Shown here in pieces: positions 1,331 through 17,502 of a stretch of 64,000 nt of DNA. Made by a program: the position numbers and the translations under genes. The notes beneath the pieces were generated by a model. It ran no database searches and was not told the DNA's origin. It saw only the letters and a list, made by a program, of their open reading frames with translations. Source of the stretch: Thalassospira sp. (GTDB lineage Bacteria; Pseudomonadota; Alphaproteobacteria; Rhodospirillales; Thalassospiraceae); NCBI RefSeq assembly GCF_030690045.1, contig NZ_JAUYHK010000018.1, positions 1 through 64,000 of the forward strand, given 5' to 3'. Position 1 is the first letter of the stretch; every line of letters starts with the position of its first letter.

Positions 1331-2032
1331 CTAAATCACCGACTGCACCCGATGTCCCGGTGCGAAAACAAGGCGGGCATAGGTGATGCCGTGGTCGTTT
1401 TCCCAAGTCGTGCGTTCGATCAGGAAAAGCGGTGCATGGGGAGCCGCACCCAGCATTTCGGCCTCGCTGTTTGAGGCGGCAATGGCCGAAAAGGCCATTT
1501 CGCCATGCGTGTAGGGCGCATGCAAAACCAGCCATTCATTGGCACTGATGATCGAAAGGTCAGCATCGGCAATCGAGGGGGCCGCAGCAATTGCCACCCA
1601 GCGATTTTCAAACATATAGGGTTTGCCATCGGCCAGATGCAGCGATGTGACATGCAGCATATCGGCATCGGGCAGCACACCAAGGCGACCGCAAATATCA
1701 TGGGGCGGGGCGGCGCGTTCGGCGGAGATCAGGCTGTAGCCATAACGCTGGCCGCGGCCTTCGATTTCAAGGCGGATGACCGGGATATCGAGTTTGGCCT
1801 TGCGCACCGGATGCAGGGTGACGCGGGTTCCGGCCTTGCGGCGGCGGTCCAGAAAGCCTGCTGTTGCCAGTTCGCGCAGGGCGCGATTGACGGTGGCACG
1901 CGCACAGCCCAGTTCGCTGGCAAGTTCGACTTCCTTGGGAATCTGCTGCCCCGGTTTCCATTCACGGGTATGAATCCGGCGCAAAACCTCGTCATGCACG
2001 CTTTGCCAGTTGGTCAGTTCCGTCGTACTCAC
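1331..2032 (-). CDS. hutC: HutC, histidine utilisation repressor (GntR family)
   Basis: A 233-residue GntR-type regulator. Residues 8-72 form the winged helix (PKEVELASELGCARATVNRALREL) and residues 90-230 an UTRA ligand domain, in which HutC proteins classically bind urocanate. It starts at GTG 2032, with AAGGG about ten bases upstream, and its start overlaps the hutF stop by four bases (GTGA), so the two are translationally coupled. It should repress the hutF-hutC and hutI-onward transcripts through the operator at 3423-3432 and so control its own synthesis. Length and domain order are normal for the family. Confidence 0.95.
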   Translation of the reverse strand: MSTTELTNWQSVHDEVLRRIHTREWKPGQQIPKEVELASELGCARATVNRALRELATAGFLDRRRKAGTRVTLHPVRKAKLDIPVIRLEIEGRGQRYGYSLISAERAAPPHDICGRLGVLPDADMLHVTSLHLADGKPYMFENRWVAIAAAPSIADADLSIISANEWLVLHAPYTHGEMAFSAIAASNSEAEMLGAAPHAPLFLIERTTWENDHGITYARLVFAPGHRVQSVI

Positions 2033-3393
2033 ACCATATCCCTTAATTGTGCCATCACCTGCCGATACCGGTTCGTGATGCTGTCATGGGCGATATGGCG
2101 GCCCTCGCGAACCATATGGCGGCCCGCAGACCAGACATCGCGCACCATGCGGTCATCCCCGGCAAAGACAAAAGCATCAAGGATCGTATCGCCTGTCCGC
2201 CCGATCAGGTCAACCGATGTCGCATCAAGCGCCATCAGATCGGCCAGTGCCCCGACCTCGATCCGTCCGGCATTGCGTCCGGCGGCCTGTGCGCCGCCAA
2301 GGGCGACGTCGTCATAAAGACGGCGGGCGGTTGATTTTTGCGCGGTCGCAAGGGCGGCGCGGGAGCGATCGCGCAGGCGCTGGCTGTATTCCAGCGTGCG
2401 CAGTTCCTCGGACAGCGAAATGCGGATATTGGAATCCGACCCGATGCCGATCCGCCCATGATGGGCAAGATATCGCACACCGTCAAAAATACCATCGCCC
2501 AGACTGGATTCGGTGATCGGGCACAGCCCGGCAACCGCCCCGGTTCGGGCAAGGGCGATTGTTTCGTGTTCCTGCATCTGGGTGCAATGGATCAGACACC
2601 AGTTTGGTGCCACATCGGCATGATGGAGCAACCATTCGACCGGGCGTTGGCCCCAGGATGCCAGGACTTCCTCGACCTCGGCCACCTGTTCGGCAAGGTG
2701 CATATGCACCGGCCCGCCTTTGGCAAGTGATGTGGTGGTCATCAGATCGTCGCGGCCAACGGCGCGCAGGGAATGGGGGGCGACGCCAAGTCGGGCATCG
2801 GCGGGCAGGGTGGTTAGCGATTGGGCGGCATTTTCATACAGACGGGCAAAGCGGTCCGGATCATTGCCAAAGCGGATTTGCCCCGGTCCCAGTGGGCGTT
2901 TGTCACAACCACCATATTGATAATGCACCGGCAGCAGGGTCAGACCAATGCCGGTTTGCGCGGCGGCGGCAATGATACGGTCGGTCATTTCACCCAGCCG
3001 GTCATAGGGCACGCCGCCCGGTTGATGATGCAGATAATGAAATTCGGTGTTGGTGGCGTATCCGGCTTCCAGCATTTCCATCTGCACAAAGGCGGTAATC
3101 ACCTCGATGTGATCGGGGGTCAGTTGATCGAGAAAGCGGAACATCAATTGCCGCCATGTCCAGAAACTGTCGTGTGGATCGGGGCCGCGCCGTTCCGTCA
3201 GACCGGCCATTGATCGCTGAAAGGCGTGGCTGTGCAGATTGGCAACGGCAGGCAGAAGAATGCCTGTGCGGGTTCCCGACTCCGGCTGATTGGCGGAAAT
3301 GCTGGTGATAATGCCGGTCTGGTCAATCTCCACCCGGACATTGTCTTGCCATCCGGAAGGGGTAAGTGCCTGATTTGCCCATAGAACTGTCAT
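2029..3393 (-). CDS. hutF: HutF, formimidoylglutamate deiminase
   Basis: A 454-residue amidohydrolase that converts N-formimidoyl-glutamate to N-formyl-glutamate and ammonia, step four of the two-step (HutF/HutG) histidine route. Visible motifs are the [11 protein letters not shown] metal site, HMHLAEQ, the [13 protein letters not shown] segment and SDSNIR near the C-terminus. The reading frame is open further upstream, but that part encodes non-family residues and crosses the promoter region. ATG 3393 (MTVLWANQ) gives the family's usual start; ATG 3402 is an alternative. It heads a leftward operon with hutC. Confidence 0.95.
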
Positions 3394-3407
3394 CGGCTGC
3401 ATCCATC

Positions 3408-3436
3408 TTGACAGGGTTATTATGTGCGTACATATT
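3408..3436 (+). promoter_or_regulatory. hutI promoter
   Basis: TTGACA at 3408-3413, a 17-base spacer, then CATATT at 3431-3436. The HutC operator candidate lies inside the spacer, as expected for repression by blocking RNA polymerase. Confidence 0.55.
3423..3432. promoter_or_regulatory. HutC operator candidate
   Basis: TGTGCGTACA is a near-palindrome matching the TGTA-N2-TACA core reported for HutC sites, with one departure from symmetry. It sits between the -35 and -10 of the rightward promoter and touches the -10 of the leftward one, so one bound dimer could silence both arms of the locus. Confidence 0.6.
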
Positions 3437-3459
3437 ATACTTAATAACAGACTTATCAA
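3432..3459 (-). promoter_or_regulatory. hutF-hutC promoter
   Basis: Read on the minus strand: TTGATA (3459-3454), 16 bases, TAATAT (3437-3432). It faces away from the hutI promoter and overlaps it. Confidence 0.55.
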
Positions 3460-3476
3460 GGGGGCGTTGGTGCACC

Positions 3477-4679
3477 ATGTTGCTGCGAAATGCCAAAATT
3501 GTCACCATTGATCCGACCGGTGTCTATGGCCTGATCGGGCGCGGTGCGCTTGTCCTGTCTGGCGACAGCATCGCCTGGGTTGGGGACGATGATGCAATTC
3601 CCTTGCAATTTCAGGAATTTGAAACCCGCGATCTGGCCGGGCGTCTGATCACCCCGGCGCTGATCGATTGCCATACCCATGTGGTGCATGGCGGCAACCG
3701 GGCGGCGGAATTTGAAATGCGGTTGCTGGGGGCGAGCTACGAAGACATTGCGCGTCAGGGGGGTGGCATTGTTTCAACCGTGACCGCAACACGGGCAGCG
3801 GGGGTTGAGGATTTGCTGAAAGCCAGCCTGTCGCGCATTGATGCCCTGCTGGCCGAGGGTGTGGCGGTGATCGAGGTCAAATCCGGCTATGGCCTGGACC
3901 GCGAAACGGAACTGAACATGCTGCGCGCGGCACGGTTGATTGAGCAGCACCGACCGGTCCGGATCAAAACCAGTTTTTTGGGGGCGCATGCGGTGCCTGC
4001 CGAATATGCCGGGCGGGCGGATGATTATATTGACGAAATTTGCATTCCAACCCTGAAAGTCGCCCATGCCGAGGGGCTGGTCGATGCGGTTGACGGATTT
4101 TGCGAAGGCATCGCCTTTGACACCGCACAAATCGGCCGGGTGTTTGCCGCCGCACAGGCGCTGGGCATTCCGGTCAAACTGCATGCCGAACAATTATCCA
4201 ATATCGGTGGTACGCAATTGGCCGCTCGTTATGGTGCGTTATCGGTGGATCATGTGGAATATGCCAGCCTGGATGATGCAAGCGCCCTTGCGGCGTCCGG
4301 CACGGTGGCGGTGTTGTTGCCCGGTGCATTTTATGCCCTGCATGAAACGCAACATCCGCCTGTTGCGGCCTTTCGCCAATATGGTGTGCCAATGGCGGTT
4401 GCCACCGATTGCAATCCCGGCACCTCGCCAATGACATCCTTGTTGCTGGCGATGAATATGGCCTGCACCCTGTTTCGCCTGACCCCCGAAGAAGCATTGG
4501 CCGGGGTGACGATCCATGCGGCGCGTGCACTTGGCCTTAAGGATGCCGGGCGGATTGCCGCGGGCATGCGGGCCGATCTGGCGATCTGGGATGTCGATCA
4601 TCCGGCGGAACTTTCCTATCGCATCGGGTTTAACCCGCTGTTTGAACGTGTTTTTGCGGGTAAATTCTTGCCGCGTTAA
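3477..4679 (+). CDS. hutI: HutI, imidazolonepropionase
   Basis: A 400-residue metal-dependent amidohydrolase that opens 4-imidazolone-5-propionate to N-formimidoyl-glutamate. The metal site is [10 protein letters not shown], followed by the [14 protein letters not shown] segment typical of Hut[10 protein letters not shown] in the middle and [11 protein letters not shown] near the end. ATG 3477 is used because GGGGG lies about a dozen bases upstream and the family begins with MLLRNA-like residues; the open frame upstream crosses the promoter. First gene of the rightward hut operon, followed after 32 bases by hutH. Confidence 0.97.
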
Positions 4680-4711
4680 GGTTTTTGGGTGTGTCGGGCA
4701 AAGGATAGAGA

Positions 4712-6262
4712 ATGACCAGAATGGTAACACCGGCAGCGGCGACACTGGCCGATCTTGAACAAATCTGGCGCAAGGGACTTTCGGTGACGCTGGACCGGTC
4801 GGCGCGGGCCGGGGTCGAGGCGGCACATGCCATGGTGCGCAAGGCGGCCGATGGTGAGGCGGCGGTGTATGGGGTCAATACCGGCTTTGGCAAGCTGGCC
4901 TCGGTCAAGATTGCCGCGAGGGATACCGAAACCCTGCAACGCAACCTGATCCTCAGCCATTGTTGCGGTGTGGGCGAGGCATTGGATATTCCGACGACGC
5001 GCCTGATGATGGTGTTGAAATTATTGTCACTGGGGCGCGGTGCGTCCGGTGTGCGCTGGAACATTATCGAACAGATTGAAAAGATGTTGGCCCACGGTGT
5101 GACGCCGGTGGTGCCGTCGCAAGGGTCTGTCGGGGCATCGGGCGATCTGGCGCCGCTTGCGCATATGGCCGCCGTGATGATTGGCGCGGGCGAGGCGGTG
5201 TGGAACGGACAGGTGATGCAAGGTGGTGAAGCCCTTGCCAGGGCCGGTTTGTCGTCGGTGGTGCTGGGCCCGAAAGAAGGGCTGGCACTGATTAACGGTA
5301 CGCAATTTTCAACTGCCTGTGCGTTGACCGCGTTGTTCGGCGCATGGCGCAATGCGGCCAATTCCGTGATCAGTGCAGCACTTTCGACCGATGCGATTAT
5401 GGGGTCAACCGCGCCGTTGGTTGATGAAATTCATACTTTGCGCGGTCATCCCGGCCAGATCAATGTGGCACGCGCCATGCGTGATTTGATGGCGGGATCG
5501 GAAATCCGCGAAAGCCACCGCGAGGGGGACAGCCGCGTTCAGGATCCCTATTGCATCCGATGTCAGCCGCAAGTCACCGGGGCGGCAATGGATTTGCTGC
5601 GCTTTGCCGGGCAGACATTGGAGATCGAGGCCAATGCGGTGACGGATAATCCGCTGGTGCTGAAAGAAGACGGACGGATTGTGTCGGGCGGGAATTTCCA
5701 TGCCGAACCCGTGGCCTTTGCCGCCGATCAGATTGCGCTGGCGATTGCCGAAATCGGCGCGATTGCACAGCGCCGGGTGGCCTTGATGGTGGATCCCACC
5801 CTGTCGCATGATCTGCCGCCGTTTCTGACCCCGGAGCCGGGCCTGAATTCCGGCCTGATGATTGCCGAGGTGACGACGGCAGCCCTGATGAGCGAGAACA
5901 AACATCTTGCCAATCCGTGTTCGACAGACAGCACCCCGACCAGCGCCAATCAGGAAGACCATGTGTCGATGGCGGCCCACGGTGCACGGCGTCTGGCAAA
6001 AATGAATGCCAATCTGGCCTGTATTCTGGGTGTTGAAATGATTTGCGCCGCCCAGGGTATTGAATTTCGCGCCCCGCTTAAAACCAGCCCACGCCTGTGC
6101 GAGGTGATGCGTGCGTTGCGCCACGATATTCCTGCCATCAAGCAGGACCGCTATATGGCACCCGATCTGGTGCGGGCGGCGGAACGGGTGGTGGATGGTA
6201 CCTTTGTTGCGGCAGCCCGGCTTGCCGGGTTTGTGACGGGGGATGGGGCGCAAGGCCAATAA
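4712..6262 (+). CDS. hutH: HutH, histidine ammonia-lyase
   Basis: A 516-residue lyase that removes ammonia from histidine to give urocanate, the first step of the pathway. It carries the intact MIO-forming triad Ala-Ser-Gly at residues 142-144 ([11 protein letters not shown]), the active-site loop VYGVNTGFG at 52-60, NGTQ, and [11 protein letters not shown] with the conserved Tyr and Arg. Length is normal. This is the working histidase of the locus; a degenerate paralogue lies at 9202-10704. Confidence 0.97.
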
Positions 6263-6286
6263 TCTGAAGGCATAATAAGAAAAGAC

Positions 6287-6304
6287 CGGCGGGTCAGACC
6301 GCCG
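6287..6304 (+). other. intercistronic hairpin between hutH and hutX
   Basis: CGGCGG pairs with CCGCCG across a six-base loop, with no T tract. A second short hairpin (ATGTGC/GCGCAT) follows near 6321-6337. The 118-base gap may hold a processing site or an extra promoter; no clear promoter was found. Confidence 0.35.
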
Positions 6305-6380
6305 CAGAAGGGTGGAAGCAGATGTGCCTTTGCGCATGTCCAAAAAATAAAAGTGCCGACCGAATTCTAAACAGGAAATC

Positions 6381-7427
6381 ATGGGGCTTATCATGTCAAT
6401 GAAACGTATTAAACTGGCCGGTGTTGCGGCAATTCTGGCTTTGGGCGCATCAACCAGTGGTGCCAGCGCATCCTATTGCGGTGACGGCAATGTTGTTAAA
6501 TTTGCGGGGATCAGCTGGGAAAGCGGTGCCTTCATTACCGAAGTGATGATGAAAATCCTTGAAAAAGGATATGACTGTCAGGTGGATGCCATTCCGGGCA
6601 ATTCGATTACGCTGGAACAGGCGACCGCCAATAATGATATCCAGATTTTTGCCGAAGAATGGATTGGCCGCAGCGATATCTGGAACAAGGCGGTTGAACT
6701 GGATCAGGTTGTTGCCGTCGGTCAGACCTTTGTCGGTGCCAGTGAAGGCTGGTTTGTTCCAGATTATGTGATCAATGGCGATCCGGCGCGACAGATTGCG
6801 CCGATGGCACCGGACCTGAAGAGCGTTTCGCAACTGTCCGATCCGGAAATCGTCAAGTTGTTTACCGATCCGGAAGAGCCGTCAAAGGGCCGTTTTCTGA
6901 ATTGCCCGTCAGGCTGGACCTGCGAAGGGATCAGCACGGCAAAGCTAGAAGCTTACAAGCTGGATGAGAATTATGTGAATTTCCGCCCCGGTACCGGGAC
7001 GGCGTTGGATTCCGCCATTACCTCGGCCTATTTGCAGGGGGAGCCGATCCTGTTTTATTACTGGTCGCCGACTGCGATCATGGGAAAATTCAAACTCGCC
7101 CAGCTTGAAGAGCCGGCCTATTCCGATGCCTGCTGGAGCGAGTTGAGCAAATCCGATGGCAAGCGTGAGGAAGGTTGTGCTTTTCCGGGTGTTGATGTTG
7201 CCTATGGTGTGAACAGTACCTTTGCCAAGGATGCGCCGGAAATTATCGCCATTCTGGAAAAGGCAACCTTCCCGCTGGAAGACGTCAATGGCAGCCTCGC
7301 TTTCATGGTGGATAACAGCGTGGATGCGCCGGTGGCGGCCGAAGAATTTCTGAAAACCAAGGCGGATGTCTGGGGCCAGTGGGTTTCGGATGAAGCGCGG
7401 GCGAAGATCGAAGAAAGCCTGAAATAG
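6381..7427 (+). CDS. hutX: HutX-like periplasmic substrate-binding protein (ABC, ProX/OpuAC type)
   Basis: A 348-residue protein with a Sec signal peptide ending near ASASYCG at about residue 31, followed by an OpuAC/ProX-type fold (VKFAGISWESGAF, then ATANNDIQIFAEEW). With the permease and ATPase that follow it forms a binding-protein-dependent importer like the HutXWV histidine system of rhizobia. ATG 6381 is chosen because AGGA lies five bases upstream; ATG 6393 would leave it too far away. Histidine as substrate is inferred from position between hutH and hutG. Confidence 0.88.
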   Translation: MGLIMSMKRIKLAGVAAILALGASTSGASASYCGDGNVVKFAGISWESGAFITEVMMKILEKGYDCQVDAIPGNSITLEQATANNDIQIFAEEWIGRSDIWNKAVELDQVVAVGQTFVGASEGWFVPDYVINGDPARQIAPMAPDLKSVSQLSDPEIVKLFTDPEEPSKGRFLNCPSGWTCEGISTAKLEAYKLDENYVNFRPGTGTALDSAITSAYLQGEPILFYYWSPTAIMGKFKLAQLEEPAYSDACWSELSKSDGKREEGCAFPGVDVAYGVNSTFAKDAPEIIAILEKATFPLEDVNGSLAFMVDNSVDAPVAAEEFLKTKADVWGQWVSDEARAKIEESLK

Positions 7428-7441
7428 GATGATGTTATCGC

Positions 7442-7474
7442 CGGTTCTCCTGTTGTTTTCGGATGGGAGAACCG
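7442..7474 (+). other. hairpin downstream of hutX
   Basis: CGGTTCTCC (7442-7450) pairs perfectly with GGAGAACCG (7466-7474) just after the binding-protein gene and before the permease. There is no T tract. Such structures often protect the 3' end of the binding-protein message and so raise its level over the permease. Confidence 0.5.
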
Positions 7475-7530
7475 CGGTGGCGCATGCAGCCAGAATGTCC
7501 TGCAGACCTTTATTTTAAGGAAAACCTTCG

Positions 7531-8388
7531 ATGTTCCCTGACAGTTTTCATCTTTCGATCCGGGGGCCGGTGAATGAGGTCATTCAGGATCTGGTTATCA
7601 ATTATGGATGGATATTCAAGGCGATATCCCATTCCATCCTGCAATCTGTTTTGTTTATCGAATGGGTGTTGCGCGGATTGCCATGGTGGGTCGTGATTGT
7701 GATCTTCATGGCGATTGCCTGGCACAGTTCGCGGCGGATTTTATTGACCGCTGCCGTTGGTATTCTGTTGTTTGCTGTCGGGGTTCTGGGGCTTTGGGAC
7801 CTGACAATGCAGACTTTGGCCCTGATGCTGATGGCGACGATTGTGTCGGTTCTGATCGGGGTGCCGGTTGGTATTCTTGCGGCCAAAAACCGGTTTGTCC
7901 GGGGAGGCGTTCTGCCGGTTCTTGATATCATGCAGACCATGCCCAGTTTCGTCTATCTGATCCCGGCATTGATGTTGTTTGGCCTTGGCAAGGTTCCGGC
8001 GATTTTGGCGACGATCATTTACGCGGTGCCGCCCCTGATTCGCCTGACCGATCTTGGCATCCGGCAGGTCGACAAGGAAGTGGTCGAAGCCGCCACGGCA
8101 TTTGGTGGCAGCCCGGCACAGATATTGTTTGGTGTTGAATTGCCGTTGGCGACCCCGACCATTATGGCCGGTTTGAACCAGACGATCATGATGGCACTGT
8201 CGATGGTGGTGGTGGCCTCAATGATTGGCGCGCGCGGCCTTGGCGAACAGGTTTTGAACGGTATCCAGACACTGGATGTCGGCAAGGGACTGGAAGCGGG
8301 GATCGGCATTGTCATCCTGGCTGTTCTGCTTGATCGTATTACGCAAGGTTACGGCAAACCCAAAACAGGGGGAGCCGGTCATGGGTAA
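7531..8388 (+). CDS. hutW: HutW-like ABC transporter permease
   Basis: A 285-residue inner-membrane protein with about six to seven hydrophobic segments and the permease cytoplasmic loop DKEVVEAATAFGGSPAQILFGVELP (residues about 186-210), which holds the EAA motif that contacts the ATPase. It is of the ProW/OpuAB class, matching the ProX-like binding protein upstream. Its 3' end overlaps the start of hutV by eight bases, so the two are coupled. Confidence 0.9.
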   Translation: MFPDSFHLSIRGPVNEVIQDLVINYGWIFKAISHSILQSVLFIEWVLRGLPWWVVIVIFMAIAWHSSRRILLTAAVGILLFAVGVLGLWDLTMQTLALMLMATIVSVLIGVPVGILAAKNRFVRGGVLPVLDIMQTMPSFVYLIPALMLFGLGKVPAILATIIYAVPPLIRLTDLGIRQVDKEVVEAATAFGGSPAQILFGVELPLATPTIMAGLNQTIMMALSMVVVASMIGARGLGEQVLNGIQTLDVGKGLEAGIGIVILAVLLDRITQGYGKPKTGGAGHG

Positions 8389-9205
8389 AATTGAAATTCG
8401 CAATGTTTACAAAATCTTTGGGCATCAGGAACAAGTGGCGCTGGAGATGGCGCGCAACGGTCTGGACAAGGATGAAATCCTCAAACAGTCGGGATGCAGT
8501 GTTGGTCTGAACAATGTCAGCCTGACGATTGGGGCGGGCAAGATTTTTGTGATTATGGGGCTTTCGGGATCAGGCAAGTCAACGCTTGTCCGCCACCTTA
8601 ATCGCCTGATTGAACCTAGCAGTGGCGAAGTTCTGTTTGACGGCGACAATATTCTGGGGCTTTCGCCCAAAGCGTTACGGTCCTTCCGGACCCACCGTGT
8701 CAGTATGGTGTTTCAAAGTTTTGCCCTGATGCCACACCGAACCGTGATGCAGAATGTTGTTTATGGGCAACGGGTGCGTGGCACCGAAAAACAGGGAGCA
8801 AAACGTCTGGGGCAGCACTGGATCGAGGCGGTCAATCTGTCGGGATATGAAAACAAATATCCCCACGAATTGTCAGGCGGGATGCGCCAGCGTGTCGGTC
8901 TGGCCCGGGCGCTGGCGGCGGATACAGATGTGATCCTGATGGATGAGGCATTCAGTGCGCTGGACCCGCTGATCCGTGCTGAAATGCAGGATCAGTTGCT
9001 GCAACTTCAAAAGGAACTGTCCAAGACCATCGTCTTTATCACCCACGATCTTGAAGAAGCCCTTCGGATCGGGTCGGAAATTGCCATCCTGAAAGACGGA
9101 CAGCTTGTTCAGGTGGGGGCACCCGCCGATATTCTGAACAATCCGGCAAATGATTATGTCGCCCGTTTTGTCCAGCGGCGTCAGATCGGAGTTCAGGCAG
9201 AATGA
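8381..9205 (+). CDS. hutV: HutV-like ABC transporter ATP-binding protein
   Basis: A 274-residue ATPase of the ProV/OpuAA class. The Walker A is GLSGSGKST at residues 60-68, the signature LSGGMRQRVGLARALA, and the Walker B VILMDEAFSALDP. The segment MARNGLDKDEILKQSG before Walker A is typical of this class. There is no C-terminal CBS pair, so it is the short form. ATG 8381 overlaps the hutW stop; the longer frame upstream is only read-through. Its stop overlaps the next start (ATGA), tying the importer to the paralogue hutH2. Confidence 0.92.
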   Translation: MGKIEIRNVYKIFGHQEQVALEMARNGLDKDEILKQSGCSVGLNNVSLTIGAGKIFVIMGLSGSGKSTLVRHLNRLIEPSSGEVLFDGDNILGLSPKALRSFRTHRVSMVFQSFALMPHRTVMQNVVYGQRVRGTEKQGAKRLGQHWIEAVNLSGYENKYPHELSGGMRQRVGLARALAADTDVILMDEAFSALDPLIRAEMQDQLLQLQKELSKTIVFITHDLEEALRIGSEIAILKDGQLVQVGAPADILNNPANDYVARFVQRRQIGVQAE

Positions 9206-10704
9206 CGCAGCCTGTTCTTTTGTCATCTCCCCTGACTTGGGAGCAAGTTGCGGCCATTGCAGATGGTGCGCGGCTTGAACTGGCACCAATGGCACGTGAA
9301 CGGATCATCAAGGGACGGGTCATTGTCGATGCGTTGGTGATGCGTGGCATTAAGGGATACGGCATCAATACCGGTGTCGGTGCATTATGCGATGTGATTA
9401 TTGATCGGGACCAGCAACAGGCCCTGTCGCATAATATCCTGATGAGCCATGCCTGCGGAGTTGGCGACCCGTTGGGGCGGATCGAAACCCGCGCCATTAT
9501 GACGGCCCAGATCAATAATTTTGCACTGGGTGCATCGGGTGTGCGGATTGATGTGGTTGATGCCATGATTGCCCTTTTGAATGCGGATTGCATTCCGGTG
9601 GTGCCGTCACGTGGTTCGGTCGGTTATCTGACCCATGCTGCGTCAATCGGTCTGGTTCTGATCGGACATGGTCATGCGATGCATGATGGTGTGCGGATCA
9701 CAGGTGTCGAGGCTTGCAAGAAAGTCGGGATTGAGCCGTTGCGGCTGGAAGCCAAGGAGGGGCTCAGTCTTGTGAACGGGACGCCCTGTGCAACCGGGCT
9801 TGCCTGTGTTGCCCTGACGCGGATGCAGGTGCTTTCGGGGTGGGCTGATACGGTCGCGGCACTCAGTGCGGAAAATCTGGGGTGTCAGATCACAGCGTTT
9901 TCGGAAACCGCACTGGGGTTGCGAAAATCCGATGGATTGCAGCGGGTTGGCAAAAGCCTCCGGTTTTATTTGAGTAATAGCCCGATGTTAGCGGCATCTT
10001 TTGGAAAACGGACACAAGACCCGCTGAGCATAAGGGCCGTGCCGCATGTGCATGGTGCGGTACGCGACATGTTTGACAATGTTGTCCAGACGGTTGATCG
10101 CGAATTGGCGAGTGTGACGGATAATCCGGTTGTTTTGGGCGATGCGGATGCACCGGAAGTCCATTCCGAGGCCCATGCGGTCGGAGCGGCGTTGGCCTTG
10201 GCGCTGGATGGTCTTGCTGTGGCGGCTGCTGAACTGGCGGCGATTTCTGAACGCCGGATTGACCGGCTGGTCAATCCGATGGTCAGTGGGCTTCCGGCAT
10301 TTCTCGTGCGCGAAAGCGGGGTGTGCTCCGGTTACATGATTGCGCAATATACAGCCGTTGCGCTGGTTGCTGAAAACCGCCGTCTTGCCGCACCGGCAAG
10401 TCTGGATGGTGGAATTACGTCTGCCTTGCAGGAAGACATTCTGACCCATGCCACATCCTCTGCATGGAAATTTCTGGCTGTTCTCGACAATCTGGAACTT
10501 GTTCTGGCGATTGAACTTCTGGCGGCGACACAGGCTTATGACCTTCGGGCTGAGGGACTGGTGTCCGGGTTTCATACCGGCAAGGTTTATGAAGCTGTCC
10601 GGGCGGTGGTTCCATCCTATTGCGATGACCGTCCGATGCATGAAGATTTCGACGCGATCCGAACCTTTATGAAGGCCACCCCCATCAATCAGGAGATCGA
10701 TTGA
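9202..10704 (+). CDS. HutH2, aromatic amino acid lyase family protein lacking the MIO triad
   Basis: A 500-residue relative of histidine ammonia-lyase. It aligns with HutH without gaps through residue 141 (both have GSVG at 138-141), then goes straight to YLTHAASIG, so the Ala-Ser-Gly that cyclises to MIO is missing and the spacing to the next block (KEGL) is exactly three residues shorter. The active-site Tyr loop is kept (GYGINTGVG, 52-60). NGTQ is NGTP, and QDPYCIR is QDPLSIR: the Arg stays and the Tyr is lost. The frame is intact and the gene is coupled by a four-base overlap to hutV and by a one-base gap to hutG, so it is not a decaying pseudogene. A similar second HutH near the transporter occurs in Pseudomonas hut loci. 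Function unknown. Confidence 0.9.
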   Translation: MTQPVLLSSPLTWEQVAAIADGARLELAPMARERIIKGRVIVDALVMRGIKGYGINTGVGALCDVIIDRDQQQALSHNILMSHACGVGDPLGRIETRAIMTAQINNFALGASGVRIDVVDAMIALLNADCIPVVPSRGSVGYLTHAASIGLVLIGHGHAMHDGVRITGVEACKKVGIEPLRLEAKEGLSLVNGTPCATGLACVALTRMQVLSGWADTVAALSAENLGCQITAFSETALGLRKSDGLQRVGKSLRFYLSNSPMLAASFGKRTQDPLSIRAVPHVHGAVRDMFDNVVQTVDRELASVTDNPVVLGDADAPEVHSEAHAVGAALALALDGLAVAAAELAAISERRIDRLVNPMVSGLPAFLVRESGVCSGYMIAQYTAVALVAENRRLAAPASLDGGITSALQEDILTHATSSAWKFLAVLDNLELVLAIELLAATQAYDLRAEGLVSGFHTGKVYEAVRAVVPSYCDDRPMHEDFDAIRTFMKATPINQEID

Positions 10705-10705
10705 T

Positions 10706-11506
10706 ATGAATCCTGTGGAAATTCACCGCGGCGATGGCCCCATCGTTCTGGGATTACCCCATACGGGGATTCATGTTCCCGACGACATTGCCGCAAAACT
10801 GAATGATCGCGGGCGGGAATTGTCCGATACTGACTGGCATATTCATACCCTTTATGACGGGTTGCTTGACGGTGTTACGACCGTGCGTGCGACATTCCAT
10901 CGTTATGTGATTGATGCGAATCGCGATCCGGCGGGAGAAAGCCTTTATCCCGGTCAGAATACCACGACACTGGTGCCGCTGACCGATTTTGACGGGCATA
11001 ATATCTGGAATGAGGTCCCCGATGCGGCAGAAATCGAACGGCGCAAAGCGGCATTTCACACCCCTTATCACGCCGCCTTGACGGCGGAACTGGAACGGGT
11101 GCGCGCCCGGCACGGGGTGGCGATCCTGTATGATTGCCATTCAATCCGGTCCTATATTCCGTTCCTGTTTGACGGCATCCTGCCCGATTTCAATATTGGC
11201 ACCAATCAGGGCGCGACGTGCCACCCGGCGATTGAAGAGGCGACGCACAGGATATGTGCGCAAGCCAATGGTTATACCAGCATCGTCAATGGCCGGTTCA
11301 AGGGCGGATGGACTACCCGCCATTATGGTCGCCCCGGAATCCATCAGCACGCCATCCAGATGGAACTGGCGCAATCGACCTATCTGACCGCCGAGCAGGC
11401 CCCGTGGCAGTATGATTCTGCGAGGGCGGAAAAACTGCGCGGTCATTTGAAAAATATCCTGACAACACTGGCCGATCTGGCCCCGACGTTAAGAGGCACA
11501 TCATGA
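10706..11506 (+). CDS. hutG: HutG, N-formylglutamate deformylase
   Basis: A 266-residue zinc amidohydrolase of the FGase family that splits N-formyl-glutamate into glutamate and formate, the last step after HutF. The motif [12 protein letters not shown] at about residues 17-28, [12 protein letters not shown], and [10 protein letters not shown] with candidate metal ligands mark the family. It starts one base after the hutH2 stop, and its own stop overlaps the hutU start (ATGA). Confidence 0.95.
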
Positions 11507-13179
11507 GCACCAATCCGCGACATAACCAGCGCGACATTTATCCGGCAACCGGCACCGAAATCACGGCCAAAAGCTGGCTGACCGAAGCGCCGATGCGCAT
11601 GCTGATGAATAATTTGCATCCCGATGTTGCCGAAAACCCGCATGAACTGGTGGTTTATGGCGGCATTGGCCGGGCGGCACGCACATGGCAGGATTTCGAC
11701 CTGATTGTCGAGAGCCTGAAAAAACTGGAAGCGGATGAAACCCTTCTGGTGCAGTCGGGCAAGCCGGTCGGGGTATTTCGGACCCACAAGGATGCGCCGC
11801 GTGTTTTGATTGCCAATTCCAATCTGGTGCCGCACTGGGCCAATTGGGACCATTTCAACGAACTCGATAAAAAAGGTCTGGCGATGTATGGCCAGATGAC
11901 GGCAGGGTCGTGGATCTATATCGGGTCGCAGGGCATTGTGCAGGGCACCTATGAAACCTTTGTCGAGGCCGGGCGTCAGCATTATGACGGCAACCTGACC
12001 GGGCGATGGATTCTGACCGCCGGTCTTGGCGGCATGGGTGGGGCGCAACCCTTGGCTGCCGTGATGGCCGGGGCGTGTTGTCTGGCGGTGGAATGCGATG
12101 AAACGCGGGCCGATTTCCGCCTGCGCACCCGTTATGTTGATGCCAAGACCCATTCGCTGGACGAGGCATTGGCGATGATTGAGGGTTGGACAAAGGCCGG
12201 GGAAGCCAAATCGGTGGCGCTGATTGGCAATGCCGCCGATATTTATCCCGAACTGGTCAAACGCGGCGTGCGCCCCGATATCGTCACCGATCAGACATCG
12301 GCCCATGATCCGCTGCATGGCTATTTGCCGCAGGGCTGGAACATGGCGCAGTGGAAGGAAAAACAGGAAAGCGACCCCAAGGCGGTTGAAAAAGCGGCGC
12401 GTGCCAGTATGAAAATCCATGTCGCGGCGATGGTCGATTTCTGGAATGCCGGGGTGCCGACCCTTGATTATGGCAACAATATCCGGCAGGTCGCCAAGGA
12501 TGAAGGCCTTAAGGATGCCTTTGCCTTTCCGGGTTTTGTACCGGCCTATATCCGGCCCCTGTTTTGCCGGGGTGTCGGGCCGTTTCGCTGGGCGGCATTG
12601 TCGGGCGACCCCGAAGATATTTACAAGACCGATCAAAAGGTCAAGGAACTGATCCCCGATGACAAACATCTGCATAACTGGCTGGATATGGCACGGGATC
12701 GCATTGCGTTTCAGGGCCTGCCTGCCCGGATTTGCTGGGTCGGTCTGGGGCAGCGTCACCGGCTGGGCCTTGCCTTTAATGAAATGGTCCGCACCGGCGA
12801 ATTGAAAGCCCCGGTGGTGATTGGCCGCGACCATCTTGACAGCGGATCGGTCGCCAGCCCCAACCGCGAAACCGAAGCCATGAAAGACGGGTCGGATGCG
12901 GTCAGCGACTGGCCGCTTTTGAATGCGTTGCTGAATTGTGCGTCGGGCGCAACATGGGTTTCATTGCATCATGGCGGCGGTGTTGGTATGGGATTCTCTC
13001 AACATTCCGGAATGGTAATATGTTGTGACGGCACAGAAGATGCCGCACGCAGGGTCGAACGTGTCCTTTGGAACGATCCGGCAACCGGTGTGATGCGTCA
13101 CGCCGATGCCGGGTATGACATCGCTTTGGATTGTGCACGGGAATACGGGCTGAACCTGCCCGGCATTCTTGACAGGTAA
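11503..13179 (+). CDS. hutU: HutU, urocanate hydratase
   Basis: A 558-residue NAD-dependent urocanase that hydrates urocanate to 4-imidazolone-5-propionate, step two of the pathway. It opens with [15 protein letters not shown] and contains the signature [17 protein letters not shown] with the catalytic Cys, plus the NAD-binding [12 protein letters not shown]. Length is normal. It lies eight kilobases from hutH in the same direction and is the last classical hut gene before the TRAP genes. Confidence 0.97.
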
Positions 13180-13207
13180 ATCAGGTTCACCATCAGGAGG
13201 GTTAAAC

Positions 13208-14302
13208 ATGAAGAGACGTGAATTTCTGACAGCGGGTGTGGCAGGTGCCGGTGCGGTTGCCGCCGCCACCTTTGCCACCCCGGCCATTGCCCAGGACAAA
13301 CGGCAGTGGAACATGGTCACCGCATGGCCGAAAAACCTGCCCGGACCGGGGGTGGCAGCCCAGATGCTGGCCGACCGGATCACCACCCTGTCGGGGGGGC
13401 GGATTGAAGTCAAACTGCATGCCGCAGGCGAACTGGTGCCGGGCAATGGCGTATTTGATGCGGTATCCGAAGGCACGGTAGAACTTTACCATGCCGTTCC
13501 GGCCTATTGGGGATCGAAATCCAAGGGGATTTTGCTGTTTGGGTCGCAGCCCTTTGGCCTGCGGGCGGATGAACAGTTTGGCTGGCTGGCGCATGGCGGC
13601 GGTCAGGAACTGTATGACGAAATTTATGGTCAGTTTGGTTTGAAGCCCTTCCTGTGTGGCAATTCCGGCCCGCAATGGCAGGGATGGTTCCGCAATGAAA
13701 TCCATTCGGTGGATGACCTCAAGGGGCTTAAATTCCGCACCACCGGTCTGGCATCGGAAATGTGTTCCAAACTGGGCATGGCGGTTCAGGCGATGGGGGG
13801 CCGGGATATGTTCCAGGCGCTTCAGACCGGGGCGCTTGATGCCGGTGAATTTATCGGCCCGTGGAGCGACAGCGCACTGGGTTTCCAGCAGGTTGCCAAA
13901 AACTATTACTGGCCGGGTGTTGGCGAACCGTCCTCGGCCGAGGAATGCGTGGTCAATGCCAAGGCATTTAACGACCTGCCCGCAGACCTTCAGGCGGTTG
14001 TCAGATATGCCTGTGACAGCCTTTATAACCCGGTGCTGACCGAATATAACACCAAGCATGCGCTGGCCCTGAAAGAACTGGTTGCCGATCATGGTGTACA
14101 GGTGCGTATGTTGCCCGAAGACATCATCGTTGCCATGGGCAAGGCGGCCGAAGAAGTGGTGGGCGAATTGCGCGAAGATGGCGATCCTTTGGTGCGCAAG
14201 ATCACCGAAAGTTTCGTTGAATATCGTGACAGCATCGGTGCCTATATGACCTATGCCGATAACGGGCAGATGAATGCCCGCGCCAAGGTGCACGGTTACT
14301 GA
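13208..14302 (+). CDS. TRAP transporter substrate-binding protein, TakP/DctP family (Tat-exported)
   Basis: A 364-residue periplasmic binding protein. It starts with a twin-arginine signal (KRREFLTAG at residues 2-10) and a cleavage region near AIAQDK. The mature part follows the TakP pattern: WPKNLPGPG, AGELVPGNGVFDAVSEG, the carboxylate-gripping Arg in LKGLKFRTTGL, and GALDAGEFIGPWSD. TakP relatives bind 2-oxo acids, so the ligand is likely an oxo- or hydroxy-acid. ATG 13208 follows an excellent AGGAGGG. It is 28 bases after hutU on the same strand. Confidence 0.92.
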   Translation: MKRREFLTAGVAGAGAVAAATFATPAIAQDKRQWNMVTAWPKNLPGPGVAAQMLADRITTLSGGRIEVKLHAAGELVPGNGVFDAVSEGTVELYHAVPAYWGSKSKGILLFGSQPFGLRADEQFGWLAHGGGQELYDEIYGQFGLKPFLCGNSGPQWQGWFRNEIHSVDDLKGLKFRTTGLASEMCSKLGMAVQAMGGRDMFQALQTGALDAGEFIGPWSDSALGFQQVAKNYYWPGVGEPSSAEECVVNAKAFNDLPADLQAVVRYACDSLYNPVLTEYNTKHALALKELVADHGVQVRMLPEDIIVAMGKAAEEVVGELREDGDPLVRKITESFVEYRDSIGAYMTYADNGQMNARAKVHGY

Positions 14303-14311
14303 TAACAGACA

Positions 14312-14350
14312 ACAACCGGCGTATCAGAAGGTGCGCCGGTTGTTTTCGTT
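14312..14350 (+). terminator. attenuating terminator between the TRAP binding protein and permease genes
   Basis: ACAACCGGCG (14312-14321) pairs with CGCCGGTTGT (14334-14343), followed by TTTCGTTTT. It lies only 13 bases before the next start, so it likely lowers permease expression relative to the binding protein rather than ending the operon. Confidence 0.7.
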
Positions 14351-14362
14351 TTGGGGGATGTC

Positions 14363-14866
14363 ATGCAACGCCTTGCCGATCTGCTGGATCTGGTCAATCA
14401 CTGGACCGGAATGACCGTGCGCTGGTTCGCGCTTTTGATGGTTCTGATCCAATTTTCCATTGTGCTGCTGCGCTATGTTTTCGGCATGAGTTCCATCGCC
14501 CTGAATGAAAGCGTGCTGTATCTGCATTCCGGGCTTTTCATGCTGGGTGCGGGCTATACGCTTTTGGTCGACAAGCATGTGCGCGTTGATATTTTCCATG
14601 CAAAGGCAACGACGCAAAACAAGGCGCGCATCGATATTTTCGGGCATGTGTTTTTGTTACTGCCGTCGATGTTTGTCTTGCTGTACTGGTCGTGGCCGTC
14701 GGTGATCAATGCGATCATGTTGCGGGAAGGGGCGATTTCGGTGGGCGGTATTCCCGCCGTCTGGCTGTTGAAATCGCTGATTCCGGCCTTTTGTATTCTA
14801 TTGATGATTCAGTCGTTGTCTTGCCTGTTACGCCAGATCCTTGTTCTGAGAGGTCGCGCAATCTGA
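14363..14866 (+). CDS. TRAP transporter small permease (DctQ type)
   Basis: A 167-residue membrane protein with four hydrophobic segments and the motif GAGYTLLVDKHVRVDIF of DctQ subunits. It starts at ATG 14363 behind GGGGG; the TTG at 14351 is less likely. Its stop overlaps the start of the large permease (TGATG), so the two subunits are made together. Confidence 0.92.
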   Translation: MQRLADLLDLVNHWTGMTVRWFALLMVLIQFSIVLLRYVFGMSSIALNESVLYLHSGLFMLGAGYTLLVDKHVRVDIFHAKATTQNKARIDIFGHVFLLLPSMFVLLYWSWPSVINAIMLREGAISVGGIPAVWLLKSLIPAFCILLMIQSLSCLLRQILVLRGRAI

Positions 14867-16413
14867 TGGAATATCTCGACCTTTTGATGTTTGTGGTGCT
14901 GATTGCCTGTATTTTGCTGGGCTTTCCGGTGTCGTTTTCGATTTCCGGGGTGGCTGTGGGTTTTGCCACGCTGGGCTGGATCAGTGGCGAAATGAATATC
15001 GCCCTTTTGGGGGCTTTCGGCCAACGGGTGTTTGGCCTTCTGACCAATGATGTGCTGATTGCCATTCCGCTGTTTGTCCTGATGGGGGTGGTTCTGGAAC
15101 GATCCCGTATTGCCGAGGATTTACTCCATACCATGGGGCGGCTGTTTGGGCAGTTGCGCGGCGGATTGGGAATCTCGGTGGTGCTGGTTGGCGCGTTGCT
15201 GGCAGCATCGACCGGGATTGTCGGGGCAACGGTGATTGCCATGGGTATGATCGCCCTGCCGACCATGTTGCGCACCGGATATGATCCGAAACTGGCATCA
15301 GGGGTGGTGTGTACCGCCGGGACGCTGGGCCAGATCATTCCGCCATCAACCCTTTTGATCATTTTGTCCGATGTGATGTCATCGGCCTATCAGCAGGCGC
15401 AATATGAACAGGGCAAATTCAGCATCAGCACCATTTCCGTCGGCCAGATTTTTGCCGGTGCCCTGGTGCCGGGCCTGACGCTGGTCGGGATTTATATTGT
15501 TTATATTTTGCTGCGCGGGTTTTTGCGGCCCGGTGACATGCCGCCTGCCAAAAATGACGATGGCCGACCGGATGCAGGTGAAGTAATCCGGGCAGTGGTG
15601 CCGCCGGTCTTGCTGATTGTTGCGGTTCTCGGGGCCATTCTGGGCGGTGTTGCGACCCCGACCGAGGCAGCATCGGTCGGTGCGATTGGCGCGACTCTGA
15701 TGGCGGGTATCCGGCAGGGCGGCAACCGCAAACTGATTTTGGGTGGCACTTTGATGTTGCTGGTTCTGGCGGTTCTGGCCGGTATGGCGCCGGTGCGGTT
15801 TCAGCGCAGCGACCTGACATCGGGGGATCTGATGCTGGGCGCGTTTTATGTCGGGCTGGCGATTTTGGGCGTGGCCGCCATTCTGGCAGCGCTGCGGCAG
15901 GCATGGCGGGGCGATATCCTGAAATCGGCGATGACATCGACGATGACGGTGACCGCCATGATTTTTGCCACCATTCTGACGGCCAGCATGTTCTCGCTGG
16001 TGTTTGTCGGACTGGGTGGCGAGGAACGTATGGCTTCGATCCTGGAAGCCATGCCGGGCGGTCCGACCGGGGCGCTGGTGTTTTGCATGGCGCTGATTTT
16101 TATTCTGGGTTTCTTTCTGGATTTTGTCGAAATCACCGTGATTTTGCTGCCGCTGATTGCACCGGTGCTGATCATGATGGGGCATGATCCGGTATGGCTG
16201 GCGATCCTGATTGCGATCAATCTGCAAACATCGTTCTTGACGCCGCCTTTTGGCTTTTCGCTGTTTTACCTGCGCGGGGCGGCGCCGCCGGAAATTACCA
16301 CCGGGCAAATTTATGCCGGGGTAATGCCGTTTATCGCCTTGCAAATCCTGTGCATTGTCGTGATCTGGTTCTGGCCGGCCTTGGCGACATGGTTGCCCGG
16401 TGTAGTATTCTGA
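14866..16413 (+). CDS. TRAP transporter large permease (DctM type)
   Basis: A 515-residue transporter subunit with more than ten hydrophobic segments. The IPLFVLMGVVLERS, ASTGIVGATVIAMG, CTAGTLGQIIPPSTLLI and LTPPFGFSLFYLRG blocks define DctM and hold the sodium and substrate sites. It is longer than many DctM proteins because of extra hydrophobic residues at about 270-340, a form seen in TakM-like systems. ATG 14866 is fixed by the overlap with the small permease; the frame upstream is noise. Confidence 0.93.
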   Translation: MEYLDLLMFVVLIACILLGFPVSFSISGVAVGFATLGWISGEMNIALLGAFGQRVFGLLTNDVLIAIPLFVLMGVVLERSRIAEDLLHTMGRLFGQLRGGLGISVVLVGALLAASTGIVGATVIAMGMIALPTMLRTGYDPKLASGVVCTAGTLGQIIPPSTLLIILSDVMSSAYQQAQYEQGKFSISTISVGQIFAGALVPGLTLVGIYIVYILLRGFLRPGDMPPAKNDDGRPDAGEVIRAVVPPVLLIVAVLGAILGGVATPTEAASVGAIGATLMAGIRQGGNRKLILGGTLMLLVLAVLAGMAPVRFQRSDLTSGDLMLGAFYVGLAILGVAAILAALRQAWRGDILKSAMTSTMTVTAMIFATILTASMFSLVFVGLGGEERMASILEAMPGGPTGALVFCMALIFILGFFLDFVEITVILLPLIAPVLIMMGHDPVWLAILIAINLQTSFLTPPFGFSLFYLRGAAPPEITTGQIYAGVMPFIALQILCIVVIWFWPALATWLPGVVF

Positions 16414-16509: not shown

Positions 16510-17502
16510 ATGAAGCTGTCACTTGCGGATGCCGAACGCATCGTGATTGATGCGTTGTTGCGCAACAATGTCAGTGCGGAAAATGCCCGATCGGTGGCGA
16601 CTGCCCTTGTCGCGGCCGAGGCCGCCGGGCAGGGTGGACATGGATTGCGCCGGGTTCTTGCCTATGCGCAGCAGGCACGGGCGGGCAAGGTTAACGGCGA
16701 TGCGGTGCCGGTTGCATCCCGACCGTTTCCGGCGGCATTGCGAATTGATGCGGGCGATGGTTATGCCTATCCCGCACTTGATCTGGCGGTAGCACTTTTG
16801 CCCGATATCGCCCGGACACAAGGCATTGCCCTTGCCGCCATTCATCATTCGCACCATGCCGGGGTGATGGGCCTGACGGTGGAACGGTTTGCCGAGCAGG
16901 GACTGGTGGCCCTGATGGCGGCGAATGCCCCGGCGGCGATGGCGGCATGGGGTGGCAAACAGCCGCTTTATGGCACCAATCCGATTGCCTTTGCCGCCCC
17001 GGTGGCGGGGGATGCGCCGATTGTGATTGATCTTGCCTTGTCCAAGGTGGCCCGCGGCAAGATCATGGCCGCCCGGCAGAAGAATGTGCCGATTCCCGAT
17101 GACTGGGCCTTTGATTGCGATGGCGTACCCACCACCGATGCACAGGCGGCATTAAACGGGACCATGGTCCCGGCGGGCGGGCCGAAAGGGGCGGCATTGG
17201 CCCTGATGGTGGAAATTATGGCCGCAGGCCTGACTGGTGGCAATTTGTCGACCGGGGCATCGTCGCTGTTTGATGATCAGGGGCCGCCGCCGGGGCTGGG
17301 CCATATGATCATCGCGATTAATCCGCAGGTCAGCGGGGCGGATCATATGGCTGATCGTCTGGCCGGTCTTGCGGCCCTGCTGTTATCCGAAGATGGTGTG
17401 CGCCTGCCCGGACGGCGTGGCCAAACCGCCCGATCCGATGCCGGGATTAACGGCATCGAGGTTGAGGAAGATGTCCTGGCGGCGATCCGGGCACTGGATT
17501 GA
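16510..17502 (+). CDS. Ldh2 family (malate/L-lactate dehydrogenase-like) oxidoreductase
   Basis: A 330-residue NAD(P)-dependent enzyme of the YlbC/YiaK/Ldh2 class, which oxidises 2-hydroxy acids or reduces imines and oxo acids. Marks are GQGGHGLRR near residue 40, HHSHHAGVMG near 115 with the catalytic His, and GKQPLYGTNPIAFAAP. It follows the TRAP genes by 96 bases on the same strand and may process what they import. The exact substrate cannot be read; a 2-hydroxy or 2-oxo acid linked to histidine breakdown is a guess. Confidence 0.88.
   Translation: MKLSLADAERIVIDALLRNNVSAENARSVATALVAAEAAGQGGHGLRRVLAYAQQARAGKVNGDAVPVASRPFPAALRIDAGDGYAYPALDLAVALLPDIARTQGIALAAIHHSHHAGVMGLTVERFAEQGLVALMAANAPAAMAAWGGKQPLYGTNPIAFAAPVAGDAPIVIDLALSKVARGKIMAARQKNVPIPDDWAFDCDGVPTTDAQAALNGTMVPAGGPKGAALALMVEIMAAGLTGGNLSTGASSLFDDQGPPPGLGHMIIAINPQVSGADHMADRLAGLAALLLSEDGVRLPGRRGQTARSDAGINGIEVEEDVLAAIRALD

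Follow-up and report, generated by a model that had tools for sequence, protein, structure and literature searches.

A histidase paralogue without the MIO triad, linked to importer genes in Thalassospira, is a candidate trimethylamine-lyase for hercynine

Introduction

A histidine ammonia-lyase (HAL) without its 4-methylideneimidazole-5-one (MIO) group cannot activate an amino group. In Agrobacterium radiobacter, the ergothioneine sulfonate pathway that Yan described in 2022 reportedly contains a trimethylamine-lyase step, with a product that ends in urocanate. Ergothionase works without MIO and splits the betaine ergothioneine into trimethylamine and thiourocanate (PMC13405746). HutH1 of the Pseudomonas fluorescens hutXWV module is called a histidase in print and is reported to be dispensable for growth on histidine (PMC8871633). 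Here we analyze hutH2 (9202..10704, plus strand), which encodes a HAL-family protein lacking the MIO triad and lies directly 3′ of importer genes hutXWV in a 64,000-nucleotide stretch of Thalassospira sp. (NZ_JAUYHK010000018.1, positions 1 to 64,000; hereafter the window). With slightly more confidence than doubt, we infer its activity, substrate and product: HutH2 would be an active, MIO-independent trimethylamine-lyase that acts on imported hercynine and yields urocanate for HutU.

HutH2 shares with the T. denticola ergothionase (PDB 6s7j) the HAL fold (Foldseek template modelling (TM) score 0.87), the absence of MIO, the replacement of HAL Tyr280 by Leu, and the retention of Tyr53, His83 and the imidazole Glu. 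The two differ in the loop, which in ergothionase (SSIG-EG-D) is one residue below HAL and in HutH2 three; in HAL Phe329, kept in ergothionase but lost in HutH2; in HAL Asn195, lost there but kept in HutH2; in Lys384, which is Tyr383 in HutH2; and in falling into separate clades. With P. putida HutH (PDB 1b8f) HutH2 has in common the fold (TM 0.89), 35-36% identity to the P. putida HAL entries and the substrate-binding residues; unlike that enzyme, it has lost the MIO triad, Tyr280 and Phe329, and scores below the HutH equivalog cut-off (TIGR01225; 474.8 versus 539.15 bits). A hutXWV-linked gene on S. meliloti pSymB, annotated as histidine ammonia-lyase, encodes a protein 66% identical to HutH2 and adjoins a ProXWV-type importer. 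In Pseudomonas loci, hutX, hutW and an ATPase gene are followed by a MIO-less gene and then by HutH, whose ASG triad was read in L133, L141, L148 and L151; it is through these loci that we liken HutH1 of the P. fluorescens SBW25 module to the HutH2 family.

Results

Loss of the MIO triad across a protein family

HutH2 and the ordinary MIO histidase HutH of the same locus (4712..6262, plus strand; 669.6 bits, above the TIGR01225 cut-off; GSVGASGD) both reach a GSVG motif at residue 138, after which HutH continues with ASGDLAP and HutH2 with YLTH. The GSVG-YLTH codons, at 9613..9636 on the plus strand, mark the deletion site, with Y142 straight after GSVG, then L, T and H145; GSVG to KEGL spans 50 residues in HutH versus 47 in HutH2. 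The hutH2 frame is intact and encodes 500 amino acids with a full-length Lyase_aromatic domain (PF00221, 489 bits). Its ATG at 9202 shares the bases ATGA with the hutV stop, and its own stop, ending at 10704, lies one base from the hutG ATG at 10706. The three-residue loss noted in a preliminary description of this DNA is therefore real, as is the abutment of hutH2 on the transporter gene and hutG; the gap-free alignment given there up to GSVG is nearly right, but MAFFT sets a compensating single-residue gap near the N-terminus. Because the Ala-Ser-Gly triad of TIGR01225-type histidases is gone, a normal MIO histidase is ruled out, as that description held. Across 15 pairs within the genus, the ratio of nonsynonymous to synonymous substitution rates (dN/dS) was 0.07-0.21 for hutH2 and 0.02-0.12 for hutH, and by this measure hutH2 is under purifying selection, somewhat weaker than that on hutH.

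We collected 192 non-redundant HAL-family proteins, comprising 98 with the pattern GS[VA]GY[LI]xH (HutH2-type), 87 with ASG or ACG (MIO-type) and seven ergothionase-type proteins, among them T. denticola ergothionase, with a loop one residue shorter than that of HAL (SSIG-EG-D, GSIG-AA-D and similar). No intermediates between the MIO and HutH2 types were present among these 192. A HutH2-type relative occurs in 10 of 28 congeners (11 of 29 genomes counting the window's own), in 9 of 385 genomes sampled from the class and in 23 of 398 from an even sample of the phylum, the window's genome being included in both. All 20 loci newly fetched from the phylum sample, like those of the other three of its 23 genomes, carry the motif with the three-residue loss, and one of the 20 repeats an earlier gene; 98 plus 20 loci make 118, in which two pairs are the same gene, leaving 116 distinct HutH2 genes. 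A contig scan, which took the best 80 of at least 582 relatives by score and is not a random sample, recovered loci from Sinorhizobium/Ensifer, Rhizobium, Mesorhizobium, Burkholderia, Paraburkholderia, Pseudomonas, Pantoea, Erwinia, Gluconobacter and others. Both hutU and an ASG-triad HAL were present in 19 of 19 HutH2 genomes checked; the remaining genomes of the hutU scan were picked by hand, and no comparison to them is drawn. An ordinary histidase altered by a sequencing or assembly error has a negligible chance of explaining these data: nothing was found in its favor, and we rejected it on the recurrence of the same deletion in 98 of the 192 proteins and in 20 of 20 further loci, on the single clade that the proteins form, and on purifying selection.

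Several further relatives surfaced in these searches. HutH2 is matched at HAL-family level by 204 Klebsiella plasmid records, at about 36% identity in the rows shown, which are labeled aromatic amino acid ammonia-lyase, histidine ammonia-lyase or hutH. The window's genome encodes a third HAL-family member on contig C12 (L043, 9653-11545), with an intact triad and Gln at the imidazole Glu position; its neighbors look like genes for fatty-acid-type synthesis and export, perhaps an aryl-polyene-like cluster. Two HutH2 genomes hold divergent extra urocanases (G027:C2:139712-141316 and G099:C1:1062857-1064461; 689 and 698 bits, where ordinary ones score about 970), which are possibly thiourocanate hydratases.

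A dispensable importer-lyase cassette in Thalassospira

In all 15 fetched hut loci of Thalassospira genomes without a HutH2-type gene, the order is hutC-hutF / hutI-hutH-hutG-hutU-dctPQM. In the six genomes with a YLTH-type gene, one of them truncated at hutC by a contig end, hutX-hutW-hutV-hutH2 is inserted into this order after hutH and before hutG, and this cassette, at 6263..10705 on the plus strand of the window, is missing whole in the 15. Of the eight remaining genomes among the 29, a GSAGYL type lies behind a HisJQMP-like importer in five, and in G008, G009 and G019 we detected no HutH2 and, at the thresholds used, no hutH or hutU either. Because the cassette is present or absent whole and the rest of the hut order is unchanged, the importer and the lyase form a single unit, dispensable and inserted into a histidine pathway that is complete without it.

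A HutX orthologue (at least 84% identical) occurs in exactly the six cassette genomes, and a ProX paralogue of 43-46% in 29 of 29. The preliminary description asked whether second HutH proteins beside hutXWV share the triad gap, and within the genus they do, as the six of 29 genomes with the HutX orthologue (84-100%) are the six with a MIO-less neighbor. HutH2 thus comes and goes with hutXWV, bearing out the proposed tie to the importer. Loci outside Thalassospira were found via HutH2 itself and cannot answer whether hutXWV neighbors always show the gap. Each cassette genome has one hutU match, 90-91% identical to the window's, and the same holds for cassette-less congeners. Because there is one hutU per cassette genome, like that of cassette-less congeners, we favor plain urocanate as the product and hercynine over ergothioneine as the substrate.

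Linkage to four kinds of importer

The lyase gene lies directly 3′ of an ATP-binding cassette (ABC) importer component in 79 of 98 HutH2 loci, versus 0 of 19 MIO-type HAL control loci (class loci, 20 fetched, with L201 dropped because it had no recognized target). In the phylum sample, 17 of 20 further loci follow an ABC component, and over distinct genes the count is 94 of 116. Within 3 kb, the importer of the 98 loci is HisJQMP-like in 46, ProXWV-like in 33 and OpuC-like in two, with 17 other or none; four importer kinds occur in all, three of them betaine-type, namely ProXWV, OpuC/EgtU-like and the betaine/carnitine/choline transporter (BCCT) class. The 46 HisJ-type binding proteins were aligned, and the alignment says nothing on substrate. 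Two of the three tryptophans of the ProX ligand cage, W140 and W188, correspond in the alignment to HutX W179 and W228 (numbers counted by hand), and both of these are present in 34 of 34 HutH2-linked HutX proteins, the window's included. HutX scores under the curated ProX cut-off NF008334 (103.2 versus 215 bits).

In two Agrobacterium loci (L115 and L128), an OpuC-type operon is followed by a HutC-type repressor and then HutH2; the L115 repressor passes TIGR02018 (278.8 over 220 bits), and the binding proteins are OpuAC (168.2 and 165.9 bits). The closest solved chain of the L115 binding protein, at a modest 1.3e-23, is the ergothioneine binder EgtUC. In L264 and L266, which belong to one family, HutH2 follows a BCCT (PF02028; 390.9 and 399.7 bits); the closest solved chains of the L264 protein are a trimethylamine transporter and BetP, and both proteins fall under the curated cut-offs of named BCCT models. 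L266 holds two MIO-less lyases in one hut locus (4078-6545, minus strand, beside 8978-12233), with HutH2 behind the BCCT and an ergothionase-type gene (GSLGAADLA, best PDB match 6s7j) adjoining an OpuC-type importer.

Within 3 kb of the lyase gene, 19 of 98 HutH2 loci and 0 of 19 controls carry an oxidase gene, a representative of which passes the N-methyl-L-tryptophan oxidase cut-off (414 over 257 bits); such a neighbor, where it occurs, is in keeping with the use of N-methylated histidines as nutrients. These oxidases, together with the HisJ-type importers, are what could point to a MIO-free lyase or hydratase acting on another histidine derivative, such as N-methyl- or N,N-dimethylhistidine or imidazole-lactate. 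We consider that decidedly unlikely: by chemical reasoning, secondary and tertiary amines and hydroxide would leave less readily without MIO, and three importer kinds belong to the quaternary-amine class. Of the earlier suggestion of a lyase using another mechanism, for example on imidazole-lactate, the mechanism is thus favored and the substrate is not; a quaternary-ammonium histidine derivative is preferred because the joint loss of MIO and HAL Tyr280 is the pattern of ergothionase, a trimethylamine-lyase.

A retained imidazole pocket

In HutH2 numbering, Y53, H83, Y142, H145, R278, Y383 and E411 are found in 98 of 98 HutH2-type proteins, and N192 and L275 in 97 of 98 each. The L275 column, corresponding to HAL Tyr280, is Tyr in 84 and Leu in three of the 87 MIO-type proteins, and Leu in five and Ile in two of the seven ergothionase-type proteins; the HAL Phe329 column is Phe in 87 of 87 MIO-type and Ala (64) or Pro (34) in the 98 HutH2-type proteins. 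HAL H83, N195, R283 and E414, presumably the imidazole- and carboxylate-binding residues, have kept counterparts in HutH2 (H83, N192, R278 and E411). The E411 column reads Gln in four MIO proteins resembling tyrosine ammonia-lyase (TAL) and is a gap in two HALs cut at the locus end; E411 matches the histidase Glu that these TAL-like relatives have replaced by Gln. All six HAL active-site positions tested fall among the 104 of 500 columns that are at least 97% identical (top 21%), although the naive chance of this, 8e-5, overlooks the conservation of such positions across HAL relatives anyway. The roles proposed for single HutH2 residues are transferred from HAL.

This conservation bears on the proposal that HutH2 is a pseudoenzyme, a catalytically dead HAL fold with a regulatory role toward HutH or the importer, exerted through mixed tetramers or histidine binding. 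MIO, Tyr280 and Phe329 are all gone, and the ASG-type HAL co-occurs in every genome checked, both as that proposal would have it; against it, residues that contact the substrate vary hardly or not at all, the gene accompanies four importer kinds, 61 of 98 loci have none of the hut enzyme genes looked for (hutF, hutI, hutG, hutU and hutD) within 3 kb, and HutH is retained where HutH2 is missing. Raised in the preliminary description as a control on HutH or the importer, this explanation now looks quite unlikely.

Phylogeny, predicted structure and the relation to ergothionase

A phylogeny of 80 rows, among them 40 of the 98 HutH2-type proteins, left out three regions (MIO loop, Tyr280 column and Phe329 stretch) and placed the HutH2 type in one clade (100/100) and the ergothionase type in a separate seven-row clade (100/99) with PDB 6s7j. 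The two clades were parted weakly in this careful tree, and a joint clade was not rejected by the approximately unbiased (AU) test (p-AU 0.342); a quick first tree was poor, with two constrained trees scoring better. The AlphaFold2 model of HutH2 has the HAL fold, with a predicted local distance difference test (pLDDT) of 87 and a predicted TM score (pTM) of 0.88, and pLDDT below 50 at 364-372, 401-414 and 498-500. In Foldseek, it matches P. putida HAL entries best among PDB structures, and ergothionase comes at rank 15.

HutH2 might instead be an ergothionase-like enzyme proper, acting mainly on ergothioneine or its sulfonate and forming thiourocanate or urocanate sulfonate. The common loss of MIO and Tyr280, the unrejected joint clade and EgtUC as closest solved chain for one importer kind would all suit such an enzyme. 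We nevertheless regard it as unlikely, since HutH2 lies outside the ergothionase clade and has lost three loop residues versus one; Tyr383 is universal where five of seven ergothionase-type proteins have Lys; His83 is likewise universal where the ergothionase type has Arg in five of seven and His in two, though T. denticola is among the latter; each cassette genome has a single hutU match, like that of cassette-less congeners, and the cassette encodes no additional enzyme that would handle a thio or sulfo product; and L266 has its separate ergothionase-type gene by an OpuC-type importer, beside HutH2. Under the hercynine reading, HutH2 acts like ergothionase; membership of the ergothionase family is not claimed.

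Two other ergothionase-type genes were noted in passing. One, annotated as histidine ammonia-lyase, lies at L165 1887-8479 (R. leguminosarum CP090551) among a gene annotated hutC, MaoC and short-chain dehydrogenase/reductase (SDR) genes and a sulfate exporter family gene, a locus that may concern ergothioneine sulfonate. The other, on S. meliloti pSymA (L162 8905-10545, NZ_CP021824), encodes a HAL relative whose frame start resembles a signal peptide.

The surrounding hut locus

On the minus strand, the window carries a hutC-like GntR repressor gene (1331..2032), named by similarity, as its orthologue clusters with L115_6, which passes TIGR02018, and hutF for formimidoylglutamate deiminase (2029..3459; TIGR02022, 563 bits; start uncertain). 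All further hut genes are on the plus strand, beginning with hutI for imidazolonepropionase (3471..4679; TIGR01224, 449.5 bits; start uncertain). Downstream of hutH, the importer is encoded by hutX, a ProX-type (OpuAC) substrate-binding protein with the conserved tryptophans (6381..7427; PF04069, 189.4 bits), hutW, a permease of the choline/betaine class (7531..8388; TIGR03416, 288 bits, below the cut-off of 363), and hutV, the ATP-binding subunit that overlaps hutH2 (8381..9205; TIGR01186, 346.9 bits, above the cut-off of 326.6; start uncertain). After hutH2 come hutG for N-formylglutamate deformylase (10706..11506; TIGR02017, 373.5 bits, over the cut-off) and hutU for urocanase (11503..13179; TIGR01228, 961.4 bits), the latter the sole match in the genome at E <= 1e-50. 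Tripartite ATP-independent periplasmic (TRAP) transporter genes dctPQM (13205-16413), whose permeases were named by similarity, lie 3′ of hutU in 21 of 21 Thalassospira hut loci compared. Beyond them, at 16510-17502, is a gene for an Ldh_2 family dehydrogenase (PF02615), undetected in the other 20 loci compared, some of which may stop short of its place.

Discussion

We favor a trimethylamine-lyase because MIO and Tyr280 are lost as in ergothionase, the imidazole pocket is kept, and quaternary amines are the substrate class of three of the four importer kinds. In the proposed route, the ProX-type importer HutXWV would bring in a quaternary-ammonium histidine derivative, most likely hercynine (N-alpha-trimethylhistidine, or histidine betaine). 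HutH2 would then grip the imidazole via E411 and H83 and the carboxylate via R278 and N192, much as a histidase does, while a base such as Y53 takes the beta proton. Trimethylamine being already a good leaving group, the MIO electrophile would be unneeded, and the room left by MIO, Tyr280 and Phe329 could accept the trimethylammonium group. The urocanate formed would be degraded by HutU, HutI, HutF and HutG and would relieve HutC.

Several observations weigh against this reading. A sink for trimethylamine was not found: the GMA-synthetase model TIGR03105 is matched in 1 of 11 HutH2 genomes of the genus versus 13 of 18 without HutH2, trimethylamine monooxygenase not having been searched for. 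The likeness to ergothionase is incomplete, with HutH2 outside its clade and Tyr383 at the position of the ergothionase Lys (T. denticola Lys384, numbered by hand), and Tyr280 loss is not confined to MIO-less proteins, given the three MIO-type proteins with Leu. E411 sits in the model stretch 401-414 of pLDDT below 50. On the importer side, controls came from one class only and HutH2 loci from several; 22 of 116 genes have no recognized ABC component directly upstream (18 if two BCCT and two OpuC cases count); and the commonest importer kind, HisJQMP-like, is an amino-acid class. An oxidase for monomethylated amines is unpredicted by a pure hercynine model. HutXWV is reported to take part in histidine uptake (PMC8871633). 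EgtUC strongly discriminates against hercynine (PMC9732360), so the EgtUC likeness leaves the ligand unfixed.

A broader proposal, which we put forward tentatively and at somewhat less than even confidence, is a widespread, unrecognized hercynine pathway in which a MIO-free lyase family with interchangeable importers feeds hut, MIO having been lost independently of ergothionase. Titles and abstracts yielded no report of hercynine breakdown by a lyase or of a MIO-less HutH2, a weak negative given that subscription journals were thinly covered. PMC12772324 names PA5093 hutG, which is at odds with its being the HutH paralogue, and our reading draws nothing from it.

Records with annotation label HutH2-type genes histidine ammonia-lyase or hutH. 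If the hercynine reading is true, these histidine ammonia-lyase labels would be wrong in rhizobia, burkholderias, pseudomonads, Pantoea and marine bacteria, and the dispensability of P. fluorescens HutH1 for growth on histidine would be explained. Histidine betaine would then be a recognized nutrient yielding trimethylamine, and HutH2 would join ergothionase as a natural example of an ammonia-lyase fold dropping MIO once the substrate supplies the leaving group.

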